35,428 nucleotides of DNA, taken from Paracoccus sp. UBA889 (GTDB taxonomy: Bacteria > Pseudomonadota > Alphaproteobacteria > Rhodobacterales > Rhodobacteraceae). Under the pieces are notes generated by a model, which was not told where the DNA came from, did no database searches, and saw nothing but the letters and a program-made list of their open reading frames with translations. Location: the NCBI GenBank assembly GCA_002294185.1, contig DBFD01000050.1:34497-69924 (forward strand), in the 5' to 3' direction. This document shows, one piece after another, positions 7,640-24,349 of this stretch (the first letter of the stretch is position 1; each line of letters starts with the position of its first letter). The position numbers were made by a program, and so were the translations under genes.

Positions 7640-7642
7640 ACC

Positions 7643-9154: not shown

Positions 9155-9294
9155 CGCCGCGGACGGAATGACCTCGCGCCATCGATCGCGCACAGAACGC
9201 GGCGGCTGCCTGCACCTCTGGTGACGGAGCGCACCGCGGCGAAACAATTAGCGTCAGCGATGACGAATGAAACGGCCACGCATCGGGAGAAAAG

Positions 9295-10198: not shown

Positions 10199-11380
10199 CT
10201 AGGAGACCGGGCCGGGTTGTGAAAGCGGCGCATGGGCCGGATCGCCGAGGCCGTGCCGCGCTTCGGCCGTCGCCGCCCGGTGCAGGGTCGCGGGCAGGGC
10301 CGCCATGTCGGTCTGGCCCAGTTGTGCCAGCGTCAGGCCCAGTTCGCGGGTGACCAGATCGACAAGGGCCGACAGGCCGGCCTCGCCCCCGGCGGCGATG
10401 GCGAATTGCATGGCGCGGCCGAAGAAGGCGAAATTCGCCCCCATCGCGAAGGCGCGGGCCACATCCTCGCCGGATCGCAGGCCGGTGTCATAAAACAGCG
10501 GAAAGTCGGCCCCCACCGCATCGCGGATGGCGCGCAGGGCCAGGATCGGCGGCGGCGCGCAATCCAGTTGCCGCCCGCCATGGGTCGAAACCTGGATCGC
10601 ATCCGCGCCCGCGTCGCGCAGCCGCAGCGCATCGGGGACCGAGGTGACGCCCTTGACCACCAGCTTGCCCGGCCAGCGGTCCCTGAGCTGCCTGAAGTAA
10701 TCCCAATCGGCCCGGGCCCGGCTTTCGGTCCGGTCGAAGGTAAAACCGGGCTTCTGGAAATTGGCCATCTCGGGCCGGCCATGGGCCAAAGTGGACAGCG
10801 ACCAGGCCGGGTGCAGGGCAAAGTCCAGGAATTGCGCGGGACCGATGCGGAAGGGCATGGTGAAGCCGCGCCGCAATTCGCGCGGTCGCAGCCCGACCTC
10901 GGGCACGTCGAGGGTCAGGATCAGGACGCGATAGCCCGCCTCGTTCGCGCGGTCGACCAGCTTCATCGTGCCACGGCCATCGCCGCTGAAGTAGAGCTGG
11001 AACCAGGCAAGGCCCTCGGCTTCCTCGATCAGCCGCTCCATCGCGGTCGAGGCGACGGTCGAGACGCCAAGCGGAATCCGGAGCCGCGCGGCCAGGCGGG
11101 CCAGCATCAGGTCGGCGCCGGGCCGGGCCAGATTGCACATGCCCATCGGGCTGATGCCGAAGGGCAGGCGGAAATCCTGGCCCAGCACGGACACACCCAG
11201 ATCGCGCCTGCTGACATCGACCAGGACGCGCGGTTGCAGGCGAATGTCGCGCAGGGCGGCGAGATTGGCGGCCTCGCCGCTGCCCGCGCCGGCCGCGCCG
11301 TCGATATAGTCGAACACCATCCAGGGCAGGTGCCGCCGGGCCAGCCGGCGGGCATCCGCGTAGGAATGGATCGCTGCCAT
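10199..11380 (-). CDS. FMN-dependent alpha-hydroxyacid oxidase/dehydrogenase; candidate sulfolactate oxidase
   Basis: 393 residues from ATG 11380, which overlaps the comE stop by four bases. It belongs to the glycolate oxidase/L-lactate dehydrogenase (LldD) flavoprotein family. Active-site residues are in place: Y25 (FDYIDGAA), Y130 (FQLYFS), D158 (LTLDVP), K243 (VVKGV), H267 and R270 (STHGGRQLD). These enzymes oxidise 2-hydroxyacids to 2-oxoacids. Deviations from the usual family motifs are visible: STHGGRQ for SNHGGRQ, YDTGLRSG for the common DGGVRxG, and FGRA for GRP. As the last gene of an HpsN-ComDE operon it is best placed to oxidise 3-sulfolactate to sulfopyruvate. The family call is firm; the substrate is inference. 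Confidence 0.9.
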   Translation of the reverse strand: MAAIHSYADARRLARRHLPWMVFDYIDGAAGAGSGEAANLAALRDIRLQPRVLVDVSRRDLGVSVLGQDFRLPFGISPMGMCNLARPGADLMLARLAARLRIPLGVSTVASTAMERLIEEAEGLAWFQLYFSGDGRGTMKLVDRANEAGYRVLILTLDVPEVGLRPRELRRGFTMPFRIGPAQFLDFALHPAWSLSTLAHGRPEMANFQKPGFTFDRTESRARADWDYFRQLRDRWPGKLVVKGVTSVPDALRLRDAGADAIQVSTHGGRQLDCAPPPILALRAIRDAVGADFPLFYDTGLRSGEDVARAFAMGANFAFFGRAMQFAIAAGGEAGLSALVDLVTRELGLTLAQLGQTDMAALPATLHRAATAEARHGLGDPAHAPLSQPGPVS

Positions 11381-11934
11381 CAGGCTTTCACCGCGCCCAT
11401 GAAACGGTCGCGGATCGTCACCGGATCCATGGTGATGACCGGCACCGGAATGTTGCCGCTGTCGCATTTGCTGACGATGATCGTCATCTTGTCGCCCGAC
11501 AGCGCGGTTTCCAGCGCGGCGCGGGTATCCTCGGCCTTGCATTCGACGACGTTCTCGCAGCCGCAGGCCCGCGCCACTGCCGCCAGCGAGGTCTTCTTGC
11601 CCGCATAGGTCGGCTGGTCCCCGGTCGAACCGTAGCTGCCATTGTCCACGATCAACAGGACGAAATTGTCGGCGACGTTGTTGGCGATGGTCGGCAGGGT
11701 GCCGAAATTCGTCAGCACCGACCCGTCGCCGTCGATGGCCACGACCTTCTTCTTCTGCGCCAGCGCCAGACCCAGCCCGATCGAGGAGGACAGCCCCATC
11801 GTTCCGAGCATGTAGAAATTGCTGGGCTGGTCGTCGATCATGTGCAGTTCCTGGCTGGGCAGGCCGATATTGCAGACCACCAGATGATCGCGGATGACGG
11901 GCGCAATGTCGCGCAGAACCTCGGAGCGGATCAT
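11380..11934 (-). CDS. comE: sulfopyruvate decarboxylase, beta subunit
   Basis: 184 residues from ATG 11934, preceded by GGAGAAAAGGA and overlapping the comD stop by four bases. It is a thiamine diphosphate-binding half-enzyme: G69-D-G-S then VDNGSYGSTG (97-105) form the GDG...N cofactor and magnesium motif, and NIGLPSQELH and TMGLSSSIGLGLALA precede it as in ComE and phosphonopyruvate decarboxylases. With the alpha subunit it decarboxylates 3-sulfopyruvate to sulfoacetaldehyde. The split into two small subunits is the ComD/ComE arrangement, whereas phosphonopyruvate decarboxylase is usually a single chain. The HpsN gene in the same operon supports the sulfonate substrate. Confidence 0.85.
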   Translation of the reverse strand: MIRSEVLRDIAPVIRDHLVVCNIGLPSQELHMIDDQPSNFYMLGTMGLSSSIGLGLALAQKKKVVAIDGDGSVLTNFGTLPTIANNVADNFVLLIVDNGSYGSTGDQPTYAGKKTSLAAVARACGCENVVECKAEDTRAALETALSGDKMTIIVSKCDSGNIPVPVITMDPVTIRDRFMGAVKA

Positions 11935-12434
11935 TCCTTTTCTCCTTTCCAGAAGCTGGCATCGGTCAGGATCGCGACCGGCTTGTTGCACATGAAGGTG
12001 TATTTCAGGATCGCACCCAGTTCGTCCGCGTCTTCCCGGCGATGGAAGTGATAGGTGGGAATAAGCATCTGCGCCAGCAGCGCCTTGGTATGGACGGCCA
12101 TCTCGACCTGGCAGGCCACCGGTTCGCCCAACTCGCCACGGTAGGAGATCAGCATCGGCAACGGCATCCGGTAGAACTGGATCAGCGTGGCCAGCGTGTT
12201 CAGTGTCACCCCAAGCGCGGTGTTCTGCATGATGATCGCCGGGCGCTTGCCGCCCATGAAGGCCCCGGCGCAAAGGCCCATCCCCTCGTCCTCCTTGTTC
12301 GACGGGATATGGAAAATCTCCTTGCGGTTCTCGATCTCGTCGATGACACCGGCAAGCTGCTTGCAGGGCACGGTGGTCACGAAATCGATTCCATGTGCTG
12401 TGAAATCGTCAACGATCTGGCGGTGTATCGTCAT
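11931..12434 (-). CDS. comD: sulfopyruvate decarboxylase, alpha subunit
   Basis: 167 residues, the pyrimidine-binding half of the thiamine diphosphate enzyme. The segment HIPSNKEDEGMGLCAGAF (about 42-59) carries the glutamate (E50 or E48) that activates the cofactor, and KRPAIIMQNTALG follows, as in ComD. Start ATG 12434 overlaps the stop of the zinc dehydrogenase gene by four bases, and its own stop overlaps comE by four bases. In methanogens ComDE makes sulfoacetaldehyde for coenzyme M; in marine roseobacters the same enzyme works in breakdown of sulfolactate and dihydroxypropanesulfonate. The degradative role fits here. Confidence 0.85.
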   Translation of the reverse strand: MTIHRQIVDDFTAHGIDFVTTVPCKQLAGVIDEIENRKEIFHIPSNKEDEGMGLCAGAFMGGKRPAIIMQNTALGVTLNTLATLIQFYRMPLPMLISYRGELGEPVACQVEMAVHTKALLAQMLIPTYHFHRREDADELGAILKYTFMCNKPVAILTDASFWKGEKE

Positions 12435-13447
12435 GCGGTGCGGTCCTCCTGGTCGGGAATGAGTAGGATCTTGGGTGCTGCGGCGCGGCCGGCGCGGATA
12501 TCGGCAAAGGCTTGCGGCCCGTCCGACAGCGGCCGCCGGTCGAACCAGTCGAGCGGCCCCAGGGCGCCGGAAAAGATTGCCTCGGCGGTGTCGCGGAAAT
12601 CCTGTTCGGTATAGGTATAGGTGCCGGTAAAACCGATTTCCTGCAAGGTCATCCGGCGAATGTCCAGCCCGCCGCGATCCGCGCCAAGACCGATATGGAC
12701 GATCTGGCCGCCGGGGCGTGCGGCCGCGCAGGCGGTGGCGCGGGTGGCTTCGAAACCCACCCCGTCTATGACGAGATGGCAGGCGCCGGTCAGGTCGGGG
12801 CGGTCGGCGGCCGAGGCGATGACGGTGACACCCTTCAGGCCGGCCAGCCGCGCGCGGCGCAATTCGCCGGGTTCGATCAGGGTGACGTTCGCGGCGCCCT
12901 GCGCGCGCAGGGCCAGCGCCGCGCCGGTGCCGATGGCGCCCCCGCCGATGACCAGCGTGCGCAGATCGTCCAGCGGCCGGTCCAGCGCCCGTCCGGCCAG
13001 CCGCACCGCGTGCCAGCCGCAGGCCAGCGGTTCAGCCAGCGCGGCCTTTTCGAGCGGCACATCGTCCGGCACGGTGACCAGGTTGCGGCGCGGCATCGCG
13101 ACGTAATCGGCGAAGGCGCCCGGTCGCGGCGGCATCGAGATGATCTGCCGCCGCGGACAAAGATTGGTGCGCCCCGCCTGGCAAGCCTCGCAGGTCTGGC
13201 AGGTCACGAGGGGGTTGATGGTGACGCGGCGGCCGTCATCGGGGCCGCCCAGGACGATGCCCGCGGCCTCGTGGCCCAGAACCAGCGGCGCCGGGCGCCG
13301 GTCGTCATGGCCCAGATAGGCGTGCATGTCCGATCCGCAGATGCCCGAGGCATGGATGCGGATCAGGTCCTCGCCCTCGCCCGGTCGGGGGCGCGGCGCA
13401 TCGGCATAGTCGAGGGTTTCGACGCCGGTATAGACCAGGGCCTTCAT
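12431..13447 (-). CDS. hpsP: zinc-dependent medium-chain dehydrogenase, candidate DHPS 2-dehydrogenase (HpsP-like)
   Basis: 338 residues from ATG 13447, overlapping the SDR stop (ATGA). Catalytic zinc ligands are C37 (SGICGSD) and H59-E60 (LGHEAAG). The structural zinc cysteines are C83, C86, C89 and C97. The NAD-binding motif is VIGGGAIGTG. In the known DHPS pathway two 2-dehydrogenases, HpsO and HpsP, interconvert the enantiomers through the 2-keto compound so that HpsN can use the R form. The position right after hpsN and an SDR gene suggests this protein is one of that pair. Assignment to HpsP rather than HpsO rests on gene order and memory of the family, and is less certain than the enzyme class. 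Confidence 0.7.
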   Translation of the reverse strand: MKALVYTGVETLDYADAPRPRPGEGEDLIRIHASGICGSDMHAYLGHDDRRPAPLVLGHEAAGIVLGGPDDGRRVTINPLVTCQTCEACQAGRTNLCPRRQIISMPPRPGAFADYVAMPRRNLVTVPDDVPLEKAALAEPLACGWHAVRLAGRALDRPLDDLRTLVIGGGAIGTGAALALRAQGAANVTLIEPGELRRARLAGLKGVTVIASAADRPDLTGACHLVIDGVGFEATRATACAAARPGGQIVHIGLGADRGGLDIRRMTLQEIGFTGTYTYTEQDFRDTAEAIFSGALGPLDWFDRRPLSDGPQAFADIRAGRAAAPKILLIPDQEDRTA

Positions 13448-14196
13448 TTCGCGCTGAATCCTCCATCGACGAACAGGGTCTGGCCGGTGACATAGCCGCT
13501 GGCATCGCTGCACAGAAACAGGATCGGGCCGTCAAGATCGGCGGGTTCTCCGTTGCGGCCGATGCAGGTCTGTTCGGCATTGCGCCGCGCGCGTTCGGGA
13601 TCGGCGAAGACCGGCCCGGTCAATTCGGTGCGAAAGAACCCCGGCGCCACGGCATTGACCATGATGCCGCGGCCCGACCAGGCCTCGGCCATGGCGCGGG
13701 TCAATTGTTCGACCCCGCCCTTGCTGGCGCCGTAGCTGATGCCGCCGGCGAAGGCGCGCCGCGATTGCAGCGAGGCGAAGTTGACGATCCGGCCCCAGCC
13801 GCGCCGCGCCATCGCGGGCACCATCGCCTGGGCCAGAAAGAACGGCGCGGCGAGGTTCAGGTCCATGGTCGTGTCCCAGCCCTCGGGCGTCACCGAATCG
13901 GCGGGCTGGCGGGTGTTGATGCCGGCCGCGTTGATCAGGATGTCGGGATCGCCGAAGGCCCGTGCCGCATCCGCCGCAATCTGCGCCAGCGCGGCGCGGT
14001 CCGACAGATCCGCCGCGACGATCGCGGTCTCGCCCCCCGTCCGGGACTGCCACGCGGCCAGCGCCTCGCGCCGGCGCGCGATGCCCACCACCTTGGCGCC
14101 GGACCGCGCCAGCAGCGAGGCCGCGGCCTGCCCCAGACCGCCGCTGGCGCCGGTGACGCAGGCGATCCTGCCGGTCAGGTCGAAAAGCTGCGACAT
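13444..14196 (-). CDS. hpsO: SDR oxidoreductase, candidate DHPS 2-dehydrogenase (HpsO-like)
   Basis: 250-residue short-chain dehydrogenase: TGASGGLG (15-22) cofactor loop, NAAG (89-92), N114, S142, Y155 and K159 (SYGASKGG). These give a complete catalytic tetrad. It follows hpsN after 7 nt and overlaps the next gene by four bases. The likely reaction is NAD-linked oxidation of the C2 hydroxyl of one enantiomer of 2,3-dihydroxypropane-1-sulfonate, forming half of an inferred two-enzyme racemisation. The sequence also resembles 5-keto-gluconate reductases, so without its neighbours it would be annotated only as a generic SDR. Confidence 0.68.
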   Translation of the reverse strand: MSQLFDLTGRIACVTGASGGLGQAAASLLARSGAKVVGIARRREALAAWQSRTGGETAIVAADLSDRAALAQIAADAARAFGDPDILINAAGINTRQPADSVTPEGWDTTMDLNLAAPFFLAQAMVPAMARRGWGRIVNFASLQSRRAFAGGISYGASKGGVEQLTRAMAEAWSGRGIMVNAVAPGFFRTELTGPVFADPERARRNAEQTCIGRNGEPADLDGPILFLCSDASGYVTGQTLFVDGGFSAK

Positions 14197-14203
14197 CGAG
14201 GGC

Positions 14204-15508
14204 CTACCCCGCGCTCAGATCGAAGGTTTGGTCGGGGAAATACTTGTGCAGGCGCACGTCGGCCGCGCGGGCATGGCCCTCCATCCCTTCGAGACGCGAG
14301 ATCCGCGCCGTCGCCTCGGCGACCGGGCGCGCACCCTCGCGCGTGGCCTGCTGCCAGGTGACGATCTTCATGTATTTGTGGACCGACAGCCCGCCCGTGT
14401 ATTTCGCCGCGCGCGAGGTCGGCAGGACGTGGTTCGTCCCCGACGCCTTGTCGCCGAACGAGACGGTCGTCTCCTCGCCCAGAAAAAGCGAGCCGTAGCA
14501 GGCCAGCCGGTCGCGCCACCAATCCAGATCGGCGGCCTGCACGGTCAGGTGCTCGGGCGCGTATTCGTCCGAGGTCGCGGCCATTTCCTCGCGGTCGGCG
14601 CACAGGATCACCTCGGCATAATCGCGCCACGCGGCCTCGGCGTTCTTGCGATTCAGTTCCGGCAGATCGGCGATCAGGCCGGGCACCTGCGCCATCACCT
14701 CCTGCGCCAGATGGCGGTCGTCGGTAACCAGCCAGACCGGCGAGTTGTAGCCATGCTCGGCCTGGCTGACCAGATCGGTGGCCACGATGAAGGGATCGGC
14801 GCCGGCATCGGCCAGGATCAGGCTGTCGGTCGGACCGGCGAACATGTCGATGCCGACGCGGCCGAACAGGATGCGCTTGGCCTCGGCGACGAACTGGTTG
14901 CCGGGACCGACGAGAATGTCGGCCCTGGGCAGGCCGAACAGGCCGAAGGTCATCGCCGCGACGCCCTGCACGCCGCCCATGGCAAGGATGCTGTCGGCGC
15001 CGCACAGATCGGCGGTATAGACGATCGCGGGATTGATCCCCTCGCCGGGGCGGGGGGGCGAACAGGTGACGACGTGATCGACGCCGGCGACCTTGGCCGT
15101 GGTCACGGTCATGATGGCGCTGGCCACGTGGCTGTAGCGCCCGCCCGGCACATAGCATCCCGCCGCCTGGACCGGGATCGCCTTCTGCCCGGCGATCAGG
15201 CCCGGCACCACCTCCATCTGCACGTCCTGCAAGGTGGCCTTCTGCGCCTCGGCGAAGCGGCGTACATTGTCATGGGCGAAGGCGATATCGTCCTTCAGCC
15301 GTTGCGGCACCTTCGCTGCCGCTGCCGCGATCTCGTCCCGCGTCAGCACGGCATTGCCGTCGTACTGGTCGAACTTGGCGGCATAATGCCGCGCCGCCTC
15401 GTCCCCGCCCCGTTCGATCTCGTCAAGGATCGTCTGCACCGTCTGGCGAACGTCGGCGGCATCCGACTGGGCGGTCTTTTCGGCTTTCTTCAGATATTCG
15501 CGGGTCAT
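14204..15508 (-). CDS. hpsN: sulfopropanediol 3-dehydrogenase (histidinol dehydrogenase-like)
   Basis: 434 residues from ATG 15508, a full-length histidinol dehydrogenase homologue. Landmarks are AAGCYVPGGRYSHVASAIMT (about 120-140), ILAMGGVQGVAAMTFGL, VGPGNQFVAEAKR, DMFAGPTDSLILAD, SQAEHGYNSP and the C-terminal LPTSRAAKYTGGLSVHKY. HpsN oxidises (R)-2,3-dihydroxypropane-1-sulfonate in two steps to (R)-3-sulfolactate using NAD. A true HisD is unlikely: no histidine biosynthesis genes are near, the gene sits 8 nt after a TRAP permease, and sulfopyruvate decarboxylase genes follow. This context makes the HpsN assignment strong. It supplies sulfolactate to the FMN oxidase and ComDE at the end of the operon. 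Confidence 0.85.
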   Translation of the reverse strand: MTREYLKKAEKTAQSDAADVRQTVQTILDEIERGGDEAARHYAAKFDQYDGNAVLTRDEIAAAAAKVPQRLKDDIAFAHDNVRRFAEAQKATLQDVQMEVVPGLIAGQKAIPVQAAGCYVPGGRYSHVASAIMTVTTAKVAGVDHVVTCSPPRPGEGINPAIVYTADLCGADSILAMGGVQGVAAMTFGLFGLPRADILVGPGNQFVAEAKRILFGRVGIDMFAGPTDSLILADAGADPFIVATDLVSQAEHGYNSPVWLVTDDRHLAQEVMAQVPGLIADLPELNRKNAEAAWRDYAEVILCADREEMAATSDEYAPEHLTVQAADLDWWRDRLACYGSLFLGEETTVSFGDKASGTNHVLPTSRAAKYTGGLSVHKYMKIVTWQQATREGARPVAEATARISRLEGMEGHARAADVRLHKYFPDQTFDLSAG

Positions 15509-15516
15509 GGGAGTCC

Positions 15517-16848
15517 TCACTTGTAGGCGGCGGGAAGAAGCAGGGTCGAGATGACCGGCACATAGGCGATCAGCAGCGTGACCAGCAGCATGAAGAAAAC
15601 GAAGGGCACGGCGCGGGCCGCGATCTTCAGGATCGATTCGCCGGTCAGGCCCGAGACCACGAACAGATTCAGCCCCAGCGGCGGCGTGATGAAGCCGACG
15701 CCAAGCGCGGTGATCATCATGATCGAGAACTGAATCTCGTTCATGCCGATATTGTCGGCCAGCGGCTTCAGGATCGGCGCCAGGATGACGATGTTGGGCG
15801 TCGTCTCCATCACGCAGCCCGCCGCGATCAGGATGCCGATCATGATCAGGATCAGCAGATAGTAATTCTCGGTCAGGCTGGTCAGCGCGAAGACGAAGCC
15901 CTGCGGCACGCCAAGCGCTGCCAGCGACTGCGCCAGGGGCAGCGAAAAGGCGATGATCGGCAGGATCACCCCGTTCACCTTGGCCGAACTGACCAGCATC
16001 GAGGGAAAGTCCGACAATTTCAGCGTGCCCATGCCAAGACCCATGATGATCGTCACCACGACGGCGGTCGCCCCGGCCTCGGTCGGGGTCAGCCGCCCCG
16101 AGAAGATGCCGTAGAAGATGATGCCGGGCACCAGGAACGCATACCAGCCCGATTTCAGCGCCTGGCCCAGATTGGCCAGCCATTCGGCGCCGCTGATCAT
16201 GTTGCCGCCTTCATAGGCGTGTCGGCGGTTGACGATGGTGTTCGTGACCAGGATCGACAGCAGGATCAGGGTGCCGGGGATCAGTGCGGCCAGAAACAGG
16301 GTGGAGGCCGAGATGCCCAGAACCAGGCCGATGATGATATAGGCGATGGATGGCGGGATCAGGATGCCGGTGCAGGCGCCTGCGGCGACCAGCGCGCAGG
16401 CATAGGGGCGGGGATAGCCGCTTTCGACCAGCCGGGCGATGGTCATGCGGCCGACGGCGGCCGCGCCCGCCGCGTCCGAACCCGAGATCGCCGCGAACAT
16501 GCCGCAGACCAGCACCGTGGCCGAGCCGAAGCCGCCCTTGGCCCAGCAGGTCAGCGCCTCGGCCACATCCAGGAACTTGCGGCTCAGCCCGGTCCTGACC
16601 AGCACGTCGCCGGTCAGGATGAACAGCGGCACGGCGGTCAGCGCGAAGGCGTCAATGCCCGAAAACAGCGATTCACCCAGCAGCGACATCGGCAGCACGC
16701 CGGACATCGTCAGCATCAGCACCACCGCGGCGCCGATGGTGGCCCAGATCGGCACGCCCAGAAGGCAGAACAGCACGAACAGCAGCACCGGCGCGTAAAA
16801 CGACCAGTCAAGCTGGACCGATTGTTCCTGAAGCGTATTCCAGAGCAT
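15517..16848 (-). CDS. TRAP transporter large permease (DctM type)
   Basis: 443 residues with about twelve hydrophobic helices, the ion-coupled translocation subunit. Family landmarks are FALTAVPLFILTGDVLVRTGLS, CGMFAAISGSDAAGAAAVG, ACTGILIPPSIAYIIIGLV and a late VGFITPPLGLNLFVVSGLTG. It lies 9 nt after the small permease gene and 8 nt before hpsN, so it is part of one message. By position it corresponds to the large membrane subunit of the DHPS transporter (HpsKLM-type). The substrate is assigned from the operon, not from this protein. Confidence 0.92.
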   Translation of the reverse strand: MLWNTLQEQSVQLDWSFYAPVLLFVLFCLLGVPIWATIGAAVVLMLTMSGVLPMSLLGESLFSGIDAFALTAVPLFILTGDVLVRTGLSRKFLDVAEALTCWAKGGFGSATVLVCGMFAAISGSDAAGAAAVGRMTIARLVESGYPRPYACALVAAGACTGILIPPSIAYIIIGLVLGISASTLFLAALIPGTLILLSILVTNTIVNRRHAYEGGNMISGAEWLANLGQALKSGWYAFLVPGIIFYGIFSGRLTPTEAGATAVVVTIIMGLGMGTLKLSDFPSMLVSSAKVNGVILPIIAFSLPLAQSLAALGVPQGFVFALTSLTENYYLLILIMIGILIAAGCVMETTPNIVILAPILKPLADNIGMNEIQFSIMMITALGVGFITPPLGLNLFVVSGLTGESILKIAARAVPFVFFMLLVTLLIAYVPVISTLLLPAAYK

Positions 16849-16857
16849 GACGGAACC

Positions 16858-17364
16858 TCAATCGAACAGCTGGTTGCCCTCGAAGACCGGGCGTCCGGCG
16901 ATCAGATCGCCGAAGTCGCGCAGCAACGATTGCAGCAGGCGGAAGATGATCAGCGCAAATCCCAGCGGCACCGCCATCAGGAACCACACCTTCGAAATGC
17001 GCAGCCCGTCGGTGACCGATCCGAACTGCCAGCTGACGCCGACGGTCTCGAAGGACCAGTAAAGCGCGATCACCGCGATCGACAGCATCACCAGGTCACC
17101 CAGGATATACAGCGCGGCCTTGGTGCGCGGGCCGACCGAATGGAACAGCACGTCGATGCGGATATGGGCCCTTTCCTTGACCGCCGAGGCGGCGCCGATC
17201 CAGACCAGATAGATGAAGGAATAGCGGACGATCTCTTCGCCCCAGATCGACGAATAGGAAAAGACCTCGCGCCGGATCACCTCGATCGCCATGGTCAGCA
17301 CCAGCACGGTGTAAAACAGCAGCAAGGCCCAGCGTTCGGCATTCTGATTGATTGCGCGCAACAT
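16858..17364 (-). CDS. TRAP transporter small permease (DctQ type)
   Basis: 168 residues with four hydrophobic helices. The central segment REVFSYSSIWGEEIVRYSFI followed by YLVWIGAASAVKERAHIRID is the usual DctQ signature, with the conserved E-E-x-x-R. The start codon chosen is ATG 17364; the purine-rich AAAAGGGGG sequence 6 nt before it would be the ribosome binding site and is buried in a hairpin (17373-17399). It bridges the binding protein and the large permease. It is separated by 69 nt of structured sequence from the binding-protein gene. Confidence 0.9.
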   Translation of the reverse strand: MLRAINQNAERWALLLFYTVLVLTMAIEVIRREVFSYSSIWGEEIVRYSFIYLVWIGAASAVKERAHIRIDVLFHSVGPRTKAALYILGDLVMLSIAVIALYWSFETVGVSWQFGSVTDGLRISKVWFLMAVPLGFALIIFRLLQSLLRDFGDLIAGRPVFEGNQLFD

Positions 17365-17372
17365 GCATCGCC

Positions 17373-17399
17373 CCCTTTTCTGTCGGGACAGGAAAAGGG
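17373..17399 (-). promoter_or_regulatory. hairpin that can cover the dctQ ribosome binding site
   Basis: On the minus strand CCCTTTTC pairs with GAAAAGGG (8 bp), extended by TGT/ACA with one bulged base. The 3' arm contains the purine-rich ribosome binding site of the small TRAP permease (GGGGG at 17371-17375). It shares three bases with the neighbouring terminator-like stem at 17397-17421, so the two structures compete at their junction. Confidence 0.45.
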
Positions 17400-17421
17400 C
17401 CGGACGCGATCCGTCCGGCCC
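17397..17421 (-). terminator. terminator-like hairpin between TRAP binding-protein and small permease genes
   Basis: Perfect 10-bp stem GGGCCGGACG / CGTCCGGCCC with a 5-nt loop, followed on the minus strand by TTTTCC. This is a strong partial terminator or 3'-end stabiliser for the binding-protein message, within the DHPS operon. Confidence 0.6.
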
Positions 17422-17433
17422 CGGAACGTCCGG

Positions 17434-18588
17434 TCAGGCGTCGTTGACGTAGTAGCGGCCCGGGGTGCCCGCCGCCTCTTCCAGTTGTGCGAAGACATCC
17501 ATCGAGCCGGCCAGCTCGGTCTTGTAGCTGTCCCATTCGCTGCGCTGATAGCCGCCGGCCTCTTTCCAGGCCGCAAGCTGGCTGTCGTCGAGCTGGTGGA
17601 ACTCGACCCCGGCCTTGCGCATCTCGGCCATCGCATAGGCCCGCGCGGCCGGCACCTTGGCGAGATTCTGCTGGGTGGTGATCTCGGCGGCGAAATCCAT
17701 CGCCTCCTTCACCTCGCCGGGCAGGCTTTCATACCATTTCATGTTGCAGGCAAAACACTGGCTGTCAGGCACGAACCGGGTGAAGGTCACGTGGCTCAGC
17801 ACGTCCTTGAAGCCGAAGATCTCCAGCGCGCCGACCGCCGGATCCAGGGCATCGGCGACGCCCTGCTTGATCGCCGAGGGCGTCTCGCCCCAGGCGATCG
17901 GCGTCGGGTTGGCGCCCAGAAGCCGGTAATATTGCTGCAACAGCTTGCTGCCGGGGACGCGGAACTTGATCCCCCTGAGATCCTCGGGAAGAAGGATCGG
18001 CTTGGCGCCGCCCTTGCGCAGGGCCACGGTGCGGGGGTCGATGACCAGATACATCAGCAGCTTGAAGCCGCGCTGTTCGACCGCCGGATGAACGTTCTTT
18101 TTCCAGACGTCGGACTGCACGAGATTGGTGAAACGCTGGTTCGAGCCGCAGAAATAAGGCAGGTTGATCAGGTCCACCACCGGCGCGAAGGGCGCGAAAT
18201 TCGACAACGAGAACTGTCCGGCCTGGACCGTGCCGCCCTGGGTCTTCTGCGCCAGCTCGCCGCCCACGCCCAGCTGCCCGCCCGGCGCCAGCTTCACATA
18301 GACCCGGCCATTGGTGGTGTTCTGGATGTTTTCCTTCAGGTCAAGCTGCATCAGCGGATAGCTGCGCGATGCGCCCAGGACATATTCGGTCGCGATGACC
18401 ATGGTGAATTCGGCGGCCTTTTCCCGCTCTGCCTCTTCCGCGCGGGTCTGCGCGGCCGCCTCGGACGACCACAGCATCCCTCCGGCGCCCAGCATCACCG
18501 CCGCGGTAAAGGCGCCGCCGCTGGTCAGTTTCAGAAAGTTCCGGCGCGATTCGCGGACGATCTCGGTGTCATCATGTTCTTCGGTCAT
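17434..18588 (-). CDS. TRAP transporter substrate-binding protein (DctP type), Tat-exported
   Basis: 384 residues, longer than the usual ~330. The leader contains a twin-arginine motif S14-R-R-N-F-L-K20 followed by a hydrophobic stretch, so export is probably by Tat. The mature domain shows DctP features: VYVKLAPGGQLGVGGELAQK, LPEDLRGIKFRVPGSKLLQQ, a lobe-two segment ALDPAVGALEIFGFKDVLSH, and MKWYESLPGEVKEAMDFAA. A strong AAGGGGGG precedes ATG 18588, within the end of the small upstream gene (17-nt overlap). It is the receptor of the TRAP importer in the DHPS operon; the expected ligand is 2,3-dihydroxypropane-1-sulfonate, inferred from the downstream enzymes. Confidence 0.9.
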   Translation of the reverse strand: MTEEHDDTEIVRESRRNFLKLTSGGAFTAAVMLGAGGMLWSSEAAAQTRAEEAEREKAAEFTMVIATEYVLGASRSYPLMQLDLKENIQNTTNGRVYVKLAPGGQLGVGGELAQKTQGGTVQAGQFSLSNFAPFAPVVDLINLPYFCGSNQRFTNLVQSDVWKKNVHPAVEQRGFKLLMYLVIDPRTVALRKGGAKPILLPEDLRGIKFRVPGSKLLQQYYRLLGANPTPIAWGETPSAIKQGVADALDPAVGALEIFGFKDVLSHVTFTRFVPDSQCFACNMKWYESLPGEVKEAMDFAAEITTQQNLAKVPAARAYAMAEMRKAGVEFHQLDDSQLAAWKEAGGYQRSEWDSYKTELAGSMDVFAQLEEAAGTPGRYYVNDA

Positions 18589-18832
18589 TCTTTCCCCCCT
18601 TGATGGTATTCAGCGCTTGCAGAGACGGGTCCGCGATGTCGTCCTTTCCGGCCAGCTTTTCGCGGACGAGGATGACGACGACGAACAGGGCAGAGGCCGT
18701 GAACAGCACCAGCATTTCGCCGATGTCTGACAGGAATGCCGAGCGATAGAAGGCACCCGCGACGACATTCGCGACAAACAGCATGAAAACCGCGAACGAC
18801 AGGTATCCAGCCCATCTGCCGAGTTTAACCAC
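18572..18832 (-). CDS. small two-helix membrane protein, first gene of the DHPS operon
   Basis: 86 residues. The GTG at 18832 was chosen because GGGAGGG stands 8 nt upstream; longer frames reach back through the operator region and are unlikely. Two hydrophobic helices (WAGYLSFAVFMLFVANVVAG and MLVLFTASALFVVVILV) are joined by a short polar loop, followed by a charged tail KLAGKDDIADPSLQALNTIK. I do not recognise a named family. It overlaps the TRAP binding-protein gene by 17 nt and is the promoter-proximal gene of the operon. A role in assembling or assisting the transporter is a guess from position only. Confidence 0.7.
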   Translation of the reverse strand: MVKLGRWAGYLSFAVFMLFVANVVAGAFYRSAFLSDIGEMLVLFTASALFVVVILVREKLAGKDDIADPSLQALNTIKGGKNDRRT

Positions 18833-18882: not shown

Positions 18883-18911
18883 AGTGTAAGCGCTTACATA
18901 GTGCCATGCAA
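18883..18911 (-). promoter_or_regulatory. candidate promoter of the DHPS operon
   Basis: On the minus strand TTGCAT (-35, 18906-18911) and TACACT (-10, 18883-18888) are separated by exactly 17 nt, about 50 nt upstream of the first start codon at 18832. The match to consensus is moderate. Both LacI-type operator palindromes overlap its elements. Confidence 0.4.
18885..18898. promoter_or_regulatory. LacI-family operator O1
   Basis: TGTAAGCGCTTACA is a perfect 14-bp palindrome with the central CG step typical of LacI/GalR operators. It lies between the divergent DHPS operon and LacI-family gene, overlapping the candidate -10 region of the operon. Confidence 0.8.
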
Positions 18912-18920
18912 GCGTTTACT
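18907..18920. promoter_or_regulatory. LacI-family operator O2 (imperfect)
   Basis: TGCAAGCGTTTACT matches O1 at 11 of 14 positions and is centred 22 bp from it, two helical turns, so two dimers could bind on the same DNA face. It overlaps the candidate -35 element. Confidence 0.65.
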
Positions 18921-18985: not shown

Positions 18986-20032
18986 ATGCAAAACGATGCC
19001 AGGGTGCCCACCATGAACGATGTCGCCCGAACGGCCGGCGTCTCGTCCGCGACGGTTTCAAGGGTCATCAACGGCACCGGCAAGGTCGACAAGGACACCC
19101 GCCAGCGCGTGGCCGAGGCGATCGAGCGGCTGGGCTATACGCCCAATTTCGGCGGCAGGTTCCTGGCCGCGGGCCGCAGCGGCACGATCGGCGCCGTGAT
19201 CCCGACGATGGCCAACGCCATGTTCGCCGGCGGGTTGCAGGCCTTCCAGGAGGTGCTGGCCGGGGCCGGACGATCTCTGCTGGTGGCCAGCAGCGGCTAT
19301 GATCCCGACGAGGAATTGTCGCAGATCCGCAATCTGGTCAGCCGCGGCGCCGAGGGACTGCTGCTGATCGGTCGGCATCGCCCCGAGGCAAGCTGGGACT
19401 ACCTTGCCCGCCGCAAGGTGCCCCATGTCGTCACCTGGGCCTACGGGACCGAGCCGGGGCGGGTCTATGTCGGCTTCGACAACCGGAAGGCCGCCTTCGA
19501 TCTGGCCCGCCGCGTGCTGGCCTTCGGGCACCGCAATCTGGCCATGATCGGCGGTATCGGCCTGCACAACGATCGCGCGCGCGATCGGGTTGTGGGCGCA
19601 AGGATGGCGGTCGATGCCTGTCCCGGCGCAAGGCTGTCGCAGGTGATCGAGGCCGGCTACGACCCGGCCGAGGGGGCCGCCGCGTTCCGACGGATGATGG
19701 CCGTTGCCGACCCGCCAAGCGCGATCATCTGCGGCAACGACGTCATCGCCGCCGGCGCGATCATGGCCGCCCGCGGGAACGGAATCGCAGTGCCCGCGCA
19801 GGTGTCCATCGTCGGTTTCGACGATATCGAACTGGCGGCGCTGTCCTGTCCGCCGCTGACGACGGTCCGGGTCCCGCAGCGCCGGATGGGACAGGAGGCC
19901 GCCACCGTCCTGCTGGCGATGGTGGCCGGGCAGACCCATACGGACAGCGTTCTGCTGGATACCGAAATCATTCTGCGGGAATCGCTGTCGGCCTGCCGCT
20001 CGCCGGCCGACGTCCCGCCGACAGTCGCGTAG
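18986..20032 (+). CDS. LacI-family transcriptional regulator of the DHPS operon
   Basis: 348 residues. The N-terminal LacI helix-turn-helix reads TMNDVARTAGVSSATVSRVI, then NGTGKVDKDTRQRVAEAIERLGY with a hinge helix near residue 55. The periplasmic-binding-like effector domain follows, with the family hallmark DDIELAALSCPPLTTVRVP near the C-terminus. ATG 18986 has a GAGGGG site 7 nt upstream; ATG 19013 is a possible alternative start. It is divergent from the DHPS operon with a 153-nt shared region holding two matching operators. It probably represses that operon and is released by DHPS or a breakdown product; it may also affect the aminotransferase and tauABC genes downstream. Confidence 0.9.
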   Translation: MQNDARVPTMNDVARTAGVSSATVSRVINGTGKVDKDTRQRVAEAIERLGYTPNFGGRFLAAGRSGTIGAVIPTMANAMFAGGLQAFQEVLAGAGRSLLVASSGYDPDEELSQIRNLVSRGAEGLLLIGRHRPEASWDYLARRKVPHVVTWAYGTEPGRVYVGFDNRKAAFDLARRVLAFGHRNLAMIGGIGLHNDRARDRVVGARMAVDACPGARLSQVIEAGYDPAEGAAAFRRMMAVADPPSAIICGNDVIAAGAIMAARGNGIAVPAQVSIVGFDDIELAALSCPPLTTVRVPQRRMGQEAATVLLAMVAGQTHTDSVLLDTEIILRESLSACRSPADVPPTVA

Positions 20033-20237
20033 GGCGCCGGATGGACCTTCGCCTCGACCGGGTGCGATCACCGCGCGATGAGCCGCAAATTTCGCGTTTG
20101 CAATATGGATCGCGGGGTGAAAGCATGGGTCATCGCGCATGCGGATCATCCGCAGGGCGCCGCGACCGGAACCCGCCGCCGCGACGCGCCGCCCGGATGC
20201 CAGCCTGTGCGGTGTCAGCAGCGAGGCCGCCTGAACC

Positions 20238-21446
20238 ATGACGATTCCGCCCTTCACGCGCAGCTTTACCCAGCAGGAGCCGATCCCCGAAGATGCGATC
20301 GCCGCGGCGATCGAGGTGATGCGAAGCGGCAGGCTGCACCGCTACAACACCGCGCCGGGCGAGGAATCGCAGGTTGCCGCGCTGGAACGCGAAGTCGCGG
20401 CCTGGCAGGGCAGCGCCTATGCGCTGGCTTGCGCCTCGGGCGGGGCGGCGCTGCGGATGGCGTTGCGCGCGGCGGGGATCGGGACGGATGACGTGGTGCT
20501 GACCAATGCCTTCACCCTGGCGCCGGTGCCGGGCGCGATCGTGGCGGTCGGGGCGCGCGCCGTTCTGGTCGAGATCGACGAGAACCTGTGCCTCGATCTG
20601 GACGATCTTCAGGCCAAGATCGAGCTTTTCAAGCCTGCCGCCGTGATGGCCTCGCACATGCGGGGGCATCTGTGCGACATGGACCGACTGACGGACATCT
20701 GCCGGGCCGCGAAGATTCCGCTGATCGAGGATTGCGCGCATACGATGGGCGCGCGCTGGCGCGGCCGGCGCAGCGGTTCCTTCGGGCTGGCCGGCGCCTT
20801 CAGCACCCAGACCTACAAGCACCTGAATTCCGGCGAGGGCGGGATCCTGGTCTCGGACGATCCGGATTTCATGGCCCGCGCGATCATCCTGTCGGGATCC
20901 TACATGCTGTATGGCCGGCACGGCGCCGCGCCCCCGGAACGCCATTTCAGCGACGCCCGGCTGGAAATTCCGAACATGTCGGCGCGGATGGACAATCTGC
21001 GCGCCGCGATCCTGCGCCCGCAACTGGCCCGGATCGAGGATGCCGCAAGTCGCTGGAACCAGCGCTACGAGGCGGTGGCACGGCGTCTGTCGGACAATCC
21101 CGCGCTGGTCTTGCCTCATCGTCCGGCCGCAGAGACCTTCATCGGCAGTTCAATCCAGTTCCGCATCCCCGCGATCAGCGGCGAGGCCGCGCAGAGGTTC
21201 GTTCAGGACTCGGCGCGGCTGGGGGTCGAGCTGAAATGGTTCGGCGCCGCCGAGCCGGTGGGCTTCACCTCGGCGCATCGAAGCTGGCACTACGTCGCGC
21301 CGCAATCCCTGCCGCGCACGGACGCGGTTCTGGCGGGGCTGTTCGACATGCGCCTGCCGCTGACGTTCAGCCTCGAGGATTGCGACCATATCGGCCGCAT
21401 CATCGCCGCCTGCGCCCCATCGCTTGCCGCGGCAGAGCGGCGATGA
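20238..21446 (+). CDS. DegT/DnrJ/EryC1/StrS-family PLP-dependent aminotransferase
   Basis: 402 residues. Pyridoxal phosphate lysine K194 is in STQTYKHLNSGEGG, and the cofactor-binding aspartate D165 is in LIEDCAHTMGA, both standard for this fold-type I family. The N-terminal ACASGGAALRMALRA and TNAFTLAPVPGAI segments also fit. Family members aminate keto-sugars, often for glycan or antibiotic biosynthesis, but no such pathway is here. The gene stands alone between the LacI regulator (205 nt upstream) and tauA (189 nt downstream), all on the plus strand. It might transfer amino groups to or from a sulfonate such as dihydroxyacetone sulfonate; this is speculation from context. Confidence 0.85.
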   Translation: MTIPPFTRSFTQQEPIPEDAIAAAIEVMRSGRLHRYNTAPGEESQVAALEREVAAWQGSAYALACASGGAALRMALRAAGIGTDDVVLTNAFTLAPVPGAIVAVGARAVLVEIDENLCLDLDDLQAKIELFKPAAVMASHMRGHLCDMDRLTDICRAAKIPLIEDCAHTMGARWRGRRSGSFGLAGAFSTQTYKHLNSGEGGILVSDDPDFMARAIILSGSYMLYGRHGAAPPERHFSDARLEIPNMSARMDNLRAAILRPQLARIEDAASRWNQRYEAVARRLSDNPALVLPHRPAAETFIGSSIQFRIPAISGEAAQRFVQDSARLGVELKWFGAAEPVGFTSAHRSWHYVAPQSLPRTDAVLAGLFDMRLPLTFSLEDCDHIGRIIAACAPSLAAAERR

Positions 21447-21546
21447 CTGCGCCGGCTTCCGCGGCGACGGTGCGTGGGCCACGACCGGGCCAGGCCCGTT
21501 TCGCGCGATTGCGGCGTTTCATGGCCTGCCTCAGCCGCCGGGGGCC

Positions 21547-21562: not shown

Positions 21563-21635
21563 AGCAGGGGGCGCGGCAATCTCATACGCGCGCCCGGTGA
21601 AGAATCGACAACAACGACAACAGGGAAACAGAACC

Positions 21636-22625
21636 ATGTCAGGATATTTTCGCACGACCATGATCGCTTCCGCCGCGCTGCTGGCGCTGTCGGGCGGGGC
21701 CTGGGCCCAATCCGTGGTGATCGGCCATTTCGGCAACCCGACCCCGATGCAGGTCGCGGCCTCCGAAGGCAAGTTTTCCGAGGCCACAGGCTGGGATGTC
21801 GAGTGGCGCAAGTTCGCCGCGGGCACCGATGTGATCGCCGCGATGGCCTCGGGCGACATCAAGGTGGCCGAGCTGGGCTCGTCGCCGCTGGCAATTGCCG
21901 CGACGCAGGGCGTCGATCTGGAAATGTTCATGGTGGCGCAGGTCATCGGCAATGCCGAAAGCCTGATCGTGCGCGACGGGTCCGAGATCGCGACGATCGA
22001 GGATCTGAAGGGCAAGCGGATCGCGACACCGGTCGGCTCGACCGCGCATTTTTCGTTGATGGGGGTTCTTGCCAAGGCCGGACTCAGCACCAGTGACGTG
22101 AACATCATGTCGATGCCGCCCGATCAGATCGCGGCCGCCTGGGAACAGGGCGCCATCGACGGCGCCTTCATCTGGCAGCCGGTGCAGAACCAGCTTCTGC
22201 AAAGCGGCACGCGGCTGGTCGGGGCGGACCAGACCGCCGAATGGGGCTATCCGACATTCGATGCCTGGGTGGTCAACAAGCAATTCGCCGAACAGAACAG
22301 GGAAGGGCTGATCGGCTTCATCAAGACCATCAACGATGCCAACAATGCCTATCTGGACGACAAGCAGGCCTGGACCGCCGACAGCGAACAGGTCAAGATC
22401 ATCGCCGACTACACCGGTGCCGACCCGGCGCAGGTTCCCGACGTGCTGTCGGGCTACACCTTCCTGCCGCTTTCCGAACAGGTGAAACCCGAATGGCTGG
22501 GCGGCGGCCTGTCCGACGTGCTGAAATCGACCGCCGAATTCCTGAAGGAGGCGGGCCGGATCGACAGCGTGGGCGAAGATTACGCGCCCTTCGTCACCGA
22601 CGCCTATGTCAAGGCCGCGCAGTAA
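21636..22625 (+). CDS. tauA: taurine/sulfonate ABC transporter substrate-binding protein
   Basis: 329 residues from ATG 21636, preceded by AGGGAA at a spacing of 8 nt. A signal peptide (MSGYFRTTMIASAALLALSG then GAWAQ) is followed by VVIGHFGNPTPMQVAAS. The run EATGWDVEWRKFAAGTDVIA followed by MASGDIKVAELGSSPLAIAA is highly characteristic of TauA, as is PPDQIAAAWEQGAIDGAFIW. TauA delivers taurine or related alkanesulfonates to TauBC. It is the first gene of a complete importer, 60 nt before tauB. The true ligand could be another small sulfonate, given the DHPS operon nearby. Confidence 0.9.
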   Translation: MSGYFRTTMIASAALLALSGGAWAQSVVIGHFGNPTPMQVAASEGKFSEATGWDVEWRKFAAGTDVIAAMASGDIKVAELGSSPLAIAATQGVDLEMFMVAQVIGNAESLIVRDGSEIATIEDLKGKRIATPVGSTAHFSLMGVLAKAGLSTSDVNIMSMPPDQIAAAWEQGAIDGAFIWQPVQNQLLQSGTRLVGADQTAEWGYPTFDAWVVNKQFAEQNREGLIGFIKTINDANNAYLDDKQAWTADSEQVKIIADYTGADPAQVPDVLSGYTFLPLSEQVKPEWLGGGLSDVLKSTAEFLKEAGRIDSVGEDYAPFVTDAYVKAAQ

Positions 22626-22685: not shown

Positions 22686-23471
22686 ATGGCTCTGGAAATA
22701 CGGGATGCTTCGGTCGTCTATCCGGCCCAGGCCGGCCGCGCGCCGGTCGAGGCGCTGTCACGGATCAACCTGACTGTCAGCGAACATGATTTCGTCGTCG
22801 CGCTTGGCGCTTCGGGATGCGGCAAATCCACGCTTCTGAACCTGATCGCGGGGTTTCTGTCGCCGTCCTCGGGCCAGATCGTGCTGGACGGGACCGAGGT
22901 GTCCGGGCCAGGCGCGGATCGTTCGGTCGTGTTCCAGAAACATGCCCTTCTGCCGTGGCTGAACGTGCGCGACAACGTGGCCTTCGGGCTTAAGCTGCGC
23001 GGGGCGGGCGCCGCCTCTTACAAGGTCGCGGACCGGTTCATCGACCTTCTCGGGCTGAAGGGCTTCGAGAAATCGCCGGTCTATGCGCTGTCGGGCGGGA
23101 TGCAGCAGCGCGTCGGCATCGCCCGCGCGCTGACCTGCGATCCCAAGCTGCTGCTGATGGACGAGCCGCTGGGCGCGCTGGACGCATTGACCCGTGAACG
23201 GGCGCAGGAGCTGATCCTGAAGATCTGGAAAAGCACCGGCAAGACGGTCTTCCTGATCACCCACAGCGTCGAGGAGGCGCTGTTCATGGGCACCCGGCTG
23301 ATCGTCATGTCGCCGCGCCCCGGACGCATCGCGCATGAATTCGACCTGCCGTTCTCGCGCCAGTTCCTGGACGGTGCCAAGGCACGAGAGGTCAAGGCCT
23401 CGGCGGAATTCATCACCCTTCGCGAAGAGGTCCTGCGCATCATCTTCAGCGACGAGGAGGAAGCCGCATGA
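22686..23471 (+). CDS. tauB: taurine/sulfonate ABC transporter ATP-binding protein
   Basis: 261 residues. Walker A GASGCGKST (41-49), Q-loop VVFQKHALLPWLNV, signature LSGGMQQRVGIARAL, Walker B LLLMDEPLGALD, and switch histidine in FLITHSVEEALFMG. The QKHALLPWLNVRDNVAFGLK stretch is typical of nitrate/sulfonate/taurine importer ATPases. The stop overlaps the tauC start by four bases. It energises the uptake of the sulfonate bound by TauA. Confidence 0.92.
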   Translation: MALEIRDASVVYPAQAGRAPVEALSRINLTVSEHDFVVALGASGCGKSTLLNLIAGFLSPSSGQIVLDGTEVSGPGADRSVVFQKHALLPWLNVRDNVAFGLKLRGAGAASYKVADRFIDLLGLKGFEKSPVYALSGGMQQRVGIARALTCDPKLLLMDEPLGALDALTRERAQELILKIWKSTGKTVFLITHSVEEALFMGTRLIVMSPRPGRIAHEFDLPFSRQFLDGAKAREVKASAEFITLREEVLRIIFSDEEEAA

Positions 23472-24349
23472 GCGATCATGGCATCAAGGAGGCCCCGGTC
23501 GGCAAGCCGCGCGGAGCCGCGTTCCTGAAGGGGCTGGGCCGCGCCCGCCCGACCAAGCCCGGCCAGACCTACGGCGTGCCGGGGCAGGGCAACACGACCT
23601 GGCTCAGCCTGCTGACCATCGCCGGCATCCTGCTGCTGTGGTGGGCGGTGACCACTGCCGGGCTGGTCAAGCCGCTGTTCATGCCCGCGCCGCAGGCGAT
23701 CGTGCGGAAATTCCTCGACATCTGGACCCAGGGCTTTACCGGCACGCCGTTCTGGCAGCATGTGCTGATCTCGACCGCGCGCGTCTTCGGCGCCTTTCTG
23801 CTGGCCTGCCTGATCGGCATCCCGCTGGGCCTGGCCATGGGCATGAGCCCGGTCATGCGCGGCATCTTCGATCCGCCGATCGAGTTCTATCGCCCGATCC
23901 CGCCGCTGGCCTATCTGCCGCTGATGATCATCTGGTTCGGCATCGGCGAAACCTCGAAGGTGCTGCTGATCTTCCTGTCGGTCTTCGCGCCCGTCGCCCT
24001 GGGCGCACGCGCCGGGGTGCGATCGGCCGCGATCGAACAGATCCACGCCGCCTACAGCTTCGGCGCCAGCCGATGGCAGGTCATGCGCCACGTCATCCTG
24101 CCCTCGGCCATGCCCGAGATCCTGACGGCGATGCGCATCGGCATCGGCTTCGGCTGGACCACGCTGGTCGCCGCCGAAATGGTCGCGGCCACGAAGGGCA
24201 TCGGCTACATGGTGCTGAGCGCGTCGCAGTTCCTGCAAACCTCGACCGTGATCATGGGCATCTTCGTCATCGCGGCCATCGCCTATGCCTTCGACATGCT
24301 GATGCGATTCGTGGAGCGCCGGGTGGTGCCGTGGAAAGGCAAGATGTAG
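23468..24349 (+). CDS. tauC: taurine/sulfonate ABC transporter permease
   Basis: 293-residue integral membrane protein with about six helices and a ~45-residue cytoplasmic N-terminal tail. Recognisable are LLWWAVTTAGLVKPLFMPAP, PIEFYRPIPPLAYLPLMIIW (the sulfonate/nitrate permease signature) and the EAA loop AAYSFGASRWQVMRHVILPS. The end FVERRVVPWKGKM is also typical of TauC. ATG 23468 overlaps the tauB stop. It is followed by a hairpin region shared with the convergent DUF475 gene. Confidence 0.92.
   Translation: MSDHGIKEAPVGKPRGAAFLKGLGRARPTKPGQTYGVPGQGNTTWLSLLTIAGILLLWWAVTTAGLVKPLFMPAPQAIVRKFLDIWTQGFTGTPFWQHVLISTARVFGAFLLACLIGIPLGLAMGMSPVMRGIFDPPIEFYRPIPPLAYLPLMIIWFGIGETSKVLLIFLSVFAPVALGARAGVRSAAIEQIHAAYSFGASRWQVMRHVILPSAMPEILTAMRIGIGFGWTTLVAAEMVAATKGIGYMVLSASQFLQTSTVIMGIFVIAAIAYAFDMLMRFVERRVVPWKGKM

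Follow-up and report, generated by a model that had tools for sequence, protein, structure and literature searches.

2,3-Dihydroxypropane-1-sulfonate (DHPS) is known as a currency exchanged between algae and bacteria. Algal cells are rich in both DHPS and cysteinolic acid (PMC8703288), and several bacterial gene sets for DHPS catabolism (hps) have been described. In Ruegeria pomeroyi the order hpsR-hpsKLM-hpsNOP-hpsQ-slcD is listed (PMC4334477), and Jannaschia CCS1, Ruegeria ANG-S4 and Granulosicoccus are named as organisms of the HpsNOP-SlcD-ComDE-Xsc type (PMC11382572). Here we analyse a stretch of 35,428 nucleotides (the window) from Paracoccus sp. UBA889, contig DBFD01000050.1, that carries a ten-gene hps operon, the divergent gene of a LacI-family regulator (HpsR) and, beyond it, a module of a DegT-family aminotransferase and a taurine-type ATP-binding cassette (ABC) importer. 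The novelty of the locus lies in this docked module and not in the hps operon.

The hps operon and its predicted route

From 18832 down to 10199, ten tightly spaced genes on the reverse strand encode, in order, a small membrane protein, the DctP, DctQ and DctM components of a tripartite ATP-independent periplasmic (TRAP) importer, HpsN, a short-chain dehydrogenase (SDR), a zinc dehydrogenase, ComD, ComE and a flavin mononucleotide (FMN) enzyme of the FMN_dh family. The initial annotation had described this set and its LacI neighbour, and every gene was found in its place, with families assigned by Pfam and NCBIfam. At five of the nine junctions the genes overlap, by 1 to 17 bases; spacers of 7 to 9 bases separate them at three more, and one of 69 bases lies between DctP and DctQ. 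With spacing of this kind, the whole operon is likely one transcript.

The operon is very probably an HpsR-controlled DHPS operon of known kind with an exit via ComDE and Xsc. On this route the TRAP importer would bring in DHPS, HpsN would convert R-DHPS to R-sulfolactate, and HpsO and HpsP would convert R- and S-DHPS to sulfolactaldehyde or, on an older view, epimerise DHPS. SlcD would then yield sulfopyruvate, from which ComDE would make sulfoacetaldehyde; Xsc and phosphotransacetylase, encoded in an isethionate-like cluster elsewhere in the genome, would release sulfite and form acetyl-CoA. We infer the fluxes along this route; gene content, gene order, active-site residues, the palindrome described below and the presence of Xsc are seen directly. 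The enantiomer conversion that the initial annotation included is the older view and is contested, since HpsO and HpsP have been reported as R- and S-DHPS dehydrogenases that oxidise their substrates to sulfolactaldehyde (PMC11131964).

Both decarboxylase subunits exceed the curated NCBIfam cut-offs for sulfopyruvate decarboxylase, in agreement with their first identification as ComDE. A role of ComDE in coenzyme M biosynthesis was considered and set aside, the genes being in a transporter-led operon. The FMN enzyme keeps the motifs of the FMN_dh family, to which SlcD presumably belongs, and contains Y25, D158, K243, H267 and R270, which we take to be its catalytic residues. Its gene occupies the place of slcD in the R. 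pomeroyi order (PMC4334477), and by sequence and position the enzyme appears to be the expected SlcD, with no new ingredient.

Xsc had been predicted to come from elsewhere, and a genome search indeed finds one on another contig (C32:11521-13248; 927 bits, cut-off 676), the sole one of 11 matches above the cut-off. Close to it are an IclR gene and genes for a TRAP importer, a GMC oxidoreductase, a YeiH-type exporter (PF03601) and a phosphotransacetylase that scores 330.6 against a cut-off of 310 for NF007233. We read this block as an isethionate cluster, taking iseKLM and iseJ to be the gene set of such a cluster. The absence of a SuyAB-like sulfolyase from the operon extends to the genome: we take SuyB to belong to PF04295, and the genome search for SuyB, which rested on that family, did not find it, the sole match being a relative of galactarate dehydratase (343 bits, below the model's cut-off) that adjoins a fructuronate reductase relative. 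CuyA was not found in the genome either (best match 24.5 bits with a CuyA query; none over the cut-off with TIGR01275). An exit through SuyB or CuyA was rejected for this genome, neither enzyme having been found.

A scan of genomes that gave at least 576 loci of the HpsN family, of which the 80 best were retained (loci are denoted by L numbers), places the layout among others. Twelve of the 80 have ComD and ComE nearby, nine of these also HpsO and HpsP, and seven of the nine also SlcD. The full window order, TRAP genes included, recurs in L046, L057 and L061, and because the whole order recurs in 3 of the 80 loci it is more than chance; in L070, comDE-slcD lies on the opposite side of the LacI gene. 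The suggestion that the operon represents an undescribed pathway layout thus has to be given up: its order recurs, and HpsNOP-SlcD-ComDE-Xsc is a published combination (PMC11382572). For the 86-residue membrane protein that opens the operon no family match was obtained in Pfam or NCBIfam; tblastn relatives lie in the equivalent place in 7 of the 80 loci (L046, L050, L051, L055, L057, L061 and L072).

HpsN, HpsR and the putative operators

Pfam and NCBIfam both label HpsN a histidinol dehydrogenase. Were it the HisD of histidine biosynthesis, the operon would not serve sulfonates at all. The NCBIfam hisD model TIGR00069 scores the window HpsN at 443.8 (cut-off 243.8), so automatic annotation names it HisD, and this acceptance would explain the 'histidinol dehydrogenase' names in public records. 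The best solved relative, however, is PDB 8wwe, an '(R)-DHPS dehydrogenase' (Table 1), followed by 'Sulfopropanediol 3-dehydrogenase' structures (8v35 and others, which we take to be the Cupriavidus enzyme) at 535 bits and less; the best HisD reaches 262 bits. The motif G-R-Y-A/S-H is described as a mark of HpsN, where HisD has G-S-A-P-L (PMC11382572), and the window HpsN has GRYSH at residues 123-127. The seven equivalents of the Zn, catalytic and sulfonate-binding residues His126, Glu318, His319, Asp352, Lys353, His359 and His411 of Cupriavidus pinatubonensis HpsN (CpHpsN) are all present. Nine of ten checked active-site positions are alike in the two enzymes; the exception is Ser226, replaced by Thr here and in 47 of 53 HpsN sequences from DHPS contexts, a set that includes some genomes twice.

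A genome search for further members of the HpsN/HisD family found one besides HpsN, on contig C72, which is 37% identical to the window HpsN, lacks the HpsN motif, has Tyr at both sulfonate sites and is presumably the true HisD. In a tree of 81 of 126 sequences, the window HpsN falls in a set of 35, mostly HpsN from DHPS operons, with a Shimodaira–Hasegawa-like approximate likelihood ratio (SH-aLRT) of 97, and the C72 protein lies far outside on a long branch. The structural match, the active-site residues, the tree and the low identity to the C72 protein together rule out HisD, to which we assign a negligible probability, and uphold the initial naming of HpsN. A separate comparison sought first-shell residues that tell DHPS-type HpsN from HpsN of cuyA-containing clusters (cuy-type; see below). 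It yielded none at the ten checked positions (53 against 14 sequences), so sequence cannot tell DHPS from cysteinolate as the HpsN substrate; five other positions do differ between the two sets.

LacI-family proteins 37-57% identical to HpsR occupy the equivalent place in other hps loci. Two putative HpsR operators lie between regulator and operon, the second 22 bp further than the first, and pairs spaced 21-23 bp apart are found in many relatives. Of 32 loci with LacI on the opposite strand, 31 (all but L085) have the pattern NNAANCGNTTNN in the 450 bp upstream of LacI, where the loci's own background predicts 0.12 per 450 bp; as read from the listing, the exact GTAAGCGCTTRC occurs in 22 of the 32. 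Within the window the loose pattern is not enriched (8 found, 6.15 expected from shuffles), and the exact 12-mer occurs in one place in the genome, at hpsR, with a backwards control pattern also found once. Position and conservation, not frequency in the window, thus support the putative operator. A link between xsc and the operon through this site was considered and rejected: in a genome-wide search that covered the exact form, the 12-mer was found at hpsR only.

The DegT–importer module and its relatives

On the same strand as hpsR and directly after it (20238-24349, +) lie the DegT aminotransferase gene and the genes of a taurine-type ABC importer, outside the coordinates of the initial annotation, which missed the module beyond the LacI gene. 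The DegT shares 82% identity with that of a cuy cluster of Paracoccus alcaliphilus; in the DegT tree it clusters with DegTs from two Paracoccus cuy clusters (SH-aLRT 99). It carries the motif KHLNSGEGG, whose lysine we take to be the pyridoxal phosphate (PLP) lysine. The open frame of the substrate-binding protein begins at 21555, its start in Table 1 following from the onset of homology.

Just ahead of the DegT start, the sequence can still be translated as V-S-S-E-A-A-stop, which is how CuyA ends. By eye, 21 of the 26 bases at 20212-20237 are identical to the P. alcaliphilus locus (L155), and the 30 bases before the DegT start have 22, 20 and 21 matches to L155, L215 and L216, compared with 11, 11 and 9 for the preceding 30; blastn alignments to L155 and L216 begin at 20214. 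These bases are most simply read as the trace of a deletion that removed cuyA from the module. Searched by blastn for remnants of cuyB, a second hpsN, the hydrolase and yeiH, the gaps of the module gave chance-level pieces, the sole exception being a weak hydrolase piece (E 6e-4, opposite strand) that we did not count as a remnant. A search of the genome for the CuyB racemase, made without a positive control, found none.

Table 1. Predicted features of the hps operon, its regulator and the adjoining module (window coordinates; scores in bits).
Feature	Coordinates	Strand	Basis
SlcD-type FMN 2-hydroxyacid (sulfolactate) dehydrogenase	10199..11380	-	PF01070 (FMN_dh) 378; slcD position
ComE, sulfopyruvate decarboxylase beta	11380..11934	-	TIGR03846 240.2, cut-off 221.5
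ComD, sulfopyruvate decarboxylase alpha	11931..12434	-	TIGR03845 151.2, cut-off 147.95
HpsP-type zinc dehydrogenase	12431..13447	-	PF08240 (ADH_N) 85; close to HpsN and HpsO in relatives
HpsO-type short-chain dehydrogenase	13444..14196	-	PF13561 (adh_short_C2) 196; adjoins HpsN in relatives
HpsN, R-DHPS 3-dehydrogenase	14204..15508	-	Histidinol_dh (Pfam) 454; PDB 8wwe 721; GRYSH; tree
DctM, TRAP large permease, HpsM-like	15517..16848	-	PF06808 300
DctQ, TRAP small permease, HpsL-like	16858..17364	-	PF04290 110
DctP, TRAP substrate-binding protein, HpsK-like	17434..18588	-	PF03480 166
Small membrane protein, 86 residues, GTG start	18572..18832	-	Relatives at equivalent position
Putative HpsR operator, palindrome GTAAGCGCTTAC	18886..18897		Conserved between regulator and operon
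Second putative operator GCAAGCGTTTAC	18908..18919		Site pairs in relatives
HpsR, LacI-family regulator, divergent from operon	18986..20032	+	PF00356 and PF13377; hps-locus position
Likely remnant of cuyA 3' end	20212..20237	+	Base identity to cuy clusters
DegT-family PLP aminotransferase	20238..21446	+	PF01041 204; KHLNSGEGG at 194
Taurine-type ABC substrate-binding protein	21636..22625	+	TIGR01729 311.4, cut-off 304.25
ABC ATPase, TauB-like	22686..23471	+	PF00005; PRK11248 316, under its cut-off of 357
ABC permease, TauC-like	23468..24349	+	PF00528; 76-83% to cuy-cluster permeases

Three of 41 sampled genomes of the genus, this one included, contain this DegT. The two others carry cuyA-DegT-cuyB-tauABC-hpsN-hydrolase-yeiH in this order, with one yeiH cut by a contig end. 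In a search of plasmids, 11 records matched DegT over 80% or more of its length. Ten of the 11 are also among the 40 HpsN-family records listed, DegT and the HpsN-family gene lying no more than about 5 kb apart, and the eleventh (39% identity) is not. All eight records examined of the ten (L155-L162, from two Paracoccus and from Shinella, Ancylobacter, Leisingera, Pseudomonas, Mesorhizobium and Polaromonas) hold CuyA-, DegT-, racemase- and HpsN-like genes; the Pseudomonas cluster has a TRAP importer in place of the ABC importer. In the P. alcaliphilus cluster, CuyA and the racemase both exceed the cut-offs of curated models, with 548.8 against 450 for CuyA and 275.4 against 190 for the racemase under the CuyB model; the other plasmid clusters were compared with it by BLAST only. 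The cluster of L155-L162 thus spans plasmids of Alpha-, Beta- and Gammaproteobacteria, and its HpsN gene is labelled hisD in seven of the eight records.

We found no description of this cuyA-DegT-cuyB-importer-hpsN cluster in a literature search that ran largely without subscription journals and preprints. The sequence network of PMC11382572 retained only HpsN sequences with hpsO and hpsP close by, so clusters of this type would have dropped out of it.

Not every DegT of this bacterial family is tied to sulfonates, a notion that we tried and rejected: a DegT match of E 1e-100 or better occurs in 246 of 295 genomes of the family. In a tree of 48 DegT sequences, 25 group with support 93 (17 with CuyA in the locus, seven without, and the window). 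Twenty fall into two other branches, none with CuyA, and three lie outside both, two with CuyA and that of Bosea; some loci without CuyA (such as L164) end near DegT, and their context is cut. Twenty examined loci of the window's family (L173-L175, L178, L179, L182, L184, L187-L198 and L202) carry another DegT, 56-64% identical to that of the window, without CuyA or HpsN neighbours.

Three other loci link DegT to hps genes. In Bosea (L121), a LacI gene is followed by two permeases, an ATPase, DegT, a binding protein, HpsN, HpsO and HpsP; a 5.2 kb contig of Natronohydrobacter (L114) holds LacI, HpsN and the start of DegT. Limibaculum sediminis (L062 10001-15226) has an hps-type LacI and an HpsN of the DHPS clade, then CuyA, a C-terminal DegT piece (residues 283-393), a racemase and pieces of an importer, and is a second joint of hps and cuy genes, apparently in decay. 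HpsN accompanies DegT in all three loci, in most cases together with a sulfonate importer.

The apparent decay in L062, where DegT and the importer are pieces, raises the question of whether the window module is itself a relic, left without a current role beside hpsR after deletion of cuyA, cuyB and the second hpsN. The cuyA-end remnant, the partner enzymes that were not found and the rarity of DegT in the genus sample all agree with this reading. Yet all four module genes are full-length open frames, the PLP lysine motif is intact and DegT is still 80-82% identical to the copies of its relatives, and we consider a decaying relic rather unlikely.

Several further features deserve mention. The YeiH exporter of a relative's cuy cluster (L216 296-1297) is 83% identical to the YeiH beside the genome's own Xsc (C32, L012:8287-9402), which hints that this exporter moved between sulfonate clusters. 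Past the DegT module, at 26530-29356 (+), lies a second TRAP importer, composed of DctP and a 637-residue protein with a DctM domain. Facing the hps operon at 2673-10062 (+) is a separate same-strand cluster of an IclR-type regulator, a sugar-type ABC importer (3478-7639), a sulfatase (7643-9154) and an SDR (9295-10062), perhaps for a sulfate ester.

Possible role of the module and comparison with known systems

It is about as likely as not that DegT and the taurine-type importer come from a cuyA-DegT-cuyB-tauABC-hpsN cluster and supply the DHPS route with an amino C3-sulfonate, either cysteinolic acid or cysteate. The importer would bring in the amino C3-sulfonate, HpsN would convert cysteinolate to cysteate, and DegT would transaminate cysteate to sulfopyruvate, which would pass to ComDE instead of a CuyA exit. 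Less probable is the full history of such a rewiring, in which the module, once part of a cysteinolic acid cluster that is widespread and seemingly undescribed, lost its CuyA exit and joined the hps operon, with cysteinolate now running through HpsN and through DegT, as the missing cysteate aminotransferase, to ComDE and Xsc. Its first step is conceivable: HpsN could convert cysteinolate, the sulfonate counterpart of histidinol, to cysteate, because the active-site residues that were checked are common to HpsN of the cuy and DHPS types and because L-cysteate binds CpHpsN as R-sulfolactate does, in the product site (PMC11382572). Gene context makes DegT a candidate cysteate or cysteinolate aminotransferase.

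The same genes might instead serve taurine, with TauABC importing it, DegT transaminating it to sulfoacetaldehyde and Xsc cleaving the product, so that the DHPS operon would share the end product only. Xsc is present in the genome, and the substrate-binding protein exceeds the cut-off of the taurine equivalog model (TIGR01729; Table 1), a point that also counts against an amino C3-sulfonate as its ligand. However, DegT and importer types like these recur beside CuyA, CuyB and HpsN, enzymes of C3 sulfonates, and in Bosea the DegT and ABC importer genes are located inside an hpsNOP operon. We regard the taurine route as unlikely.

The Bosea locus bears on another alternative, in which DegT acts upstream and turns cysteinolic acid into 2-oxo-3-hydroxypropane-1-sulfonate, which HpsO or HpsP would reduce to DHPS for HpsN. 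In algae, that intermediate has been proposed as the link between cysteinolate and DHPS (PMC11131964), and L121 pairs DegT with HpsNOP and has no CuyA match in 21 kb. By contrast, the 14 HpsN loci of cuy context have no HpsO or HpsP match, and the two enzymes are reported to act at C3, not C2 (PMC11131964), which leaves an upstream DegT improbable.

Entry of an amino C3-sulfonate into the DHPS route nevertheless has to be set against several observations. L-Cysteate inhibited CpHpsN weakly (IC50 2.4 mM) and L-histidinol was no substrate of it (PMC11382572). The exact docked layout occurs in one genome and in no other locus examined, and the cuyA remnant is short. L217 has CuyA, a racemase, an importer and HpsN with no DegT match, so DegT is not needed in every cuy cluster. 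No operator-like site was found before DegT, and co-regulation would therefore need read-through from hpsR. At the exit, the phosphotransacetylase falls slightly below the pta equivalog cut-off (309.2, cut-off 311.2). The genome consists of 79 contigs and is 97% complete, so the absence of a gene may be a gap, and the functions of all operon and module genes are predictions read from sequence.

If an amino C3-sulfonate does enter here, the genome may use DHPS and also a related, nitrogen-containing sulfonate. A search of the literature for bacterial catabolic genes for cysteinolic acid, covering the titles and starts of abstracts among the hits listed, found none. For R. pomeroyi, the genes for sulfopyruvate-cysteate aminotransferase and cysteate racemase are stated to be unknown (PMC11382572). 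DegT is a concrete candidate for such an aminotransferase, one enzyme assay away, because it recurs beside CuyA, CuyB and HpsN and inside an hpsNOP operon.

Set beside the described systems, the hps operon is one more member of a known layout. R. pomeroyi DSS-3 (SPO0590-0598) has the LacI regulator, TRAP importer, HpsN, HpsO, HpsP and SlcD in the order of the window, but hpsQ (UspA) before slcD, where the window has comDE; the small membrane protein before DctP is in the window and not in the R. pomeroyi table (PMC4334477). The pathway of Jannaschia CCS1, Ruegeria ANG-S4 and Granulosicoccus agrees with the window in its enzymes and end reaction (PMC11382572), a likeness of enzyme sets, and the window's Xsc lies on a separate contig in an isethionate-like cluster. 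Cupriavidus pinatubonensis, with hpsRNOUP-suyAB, has HpsN, HpsO and HpsP in common with the window, but ends in SuyAB and uses a major facilitator superfamily (MFS) importer, where the window has ComDE and a TRAP importer (PMC11382572). The module has its closest counterparts in the cuyA-DegT-cuyB-tauABC-hpsN cluster of P. alcaliphilus plasmid NZ_CP067128 and its relatives, with 82% identity in DegT and 73-87% in the taurine-type ABC importer; in contrast to that cluster, the window genome has no detected cuyA or cuyB and no second hpsN, and its module abuts hpsR.

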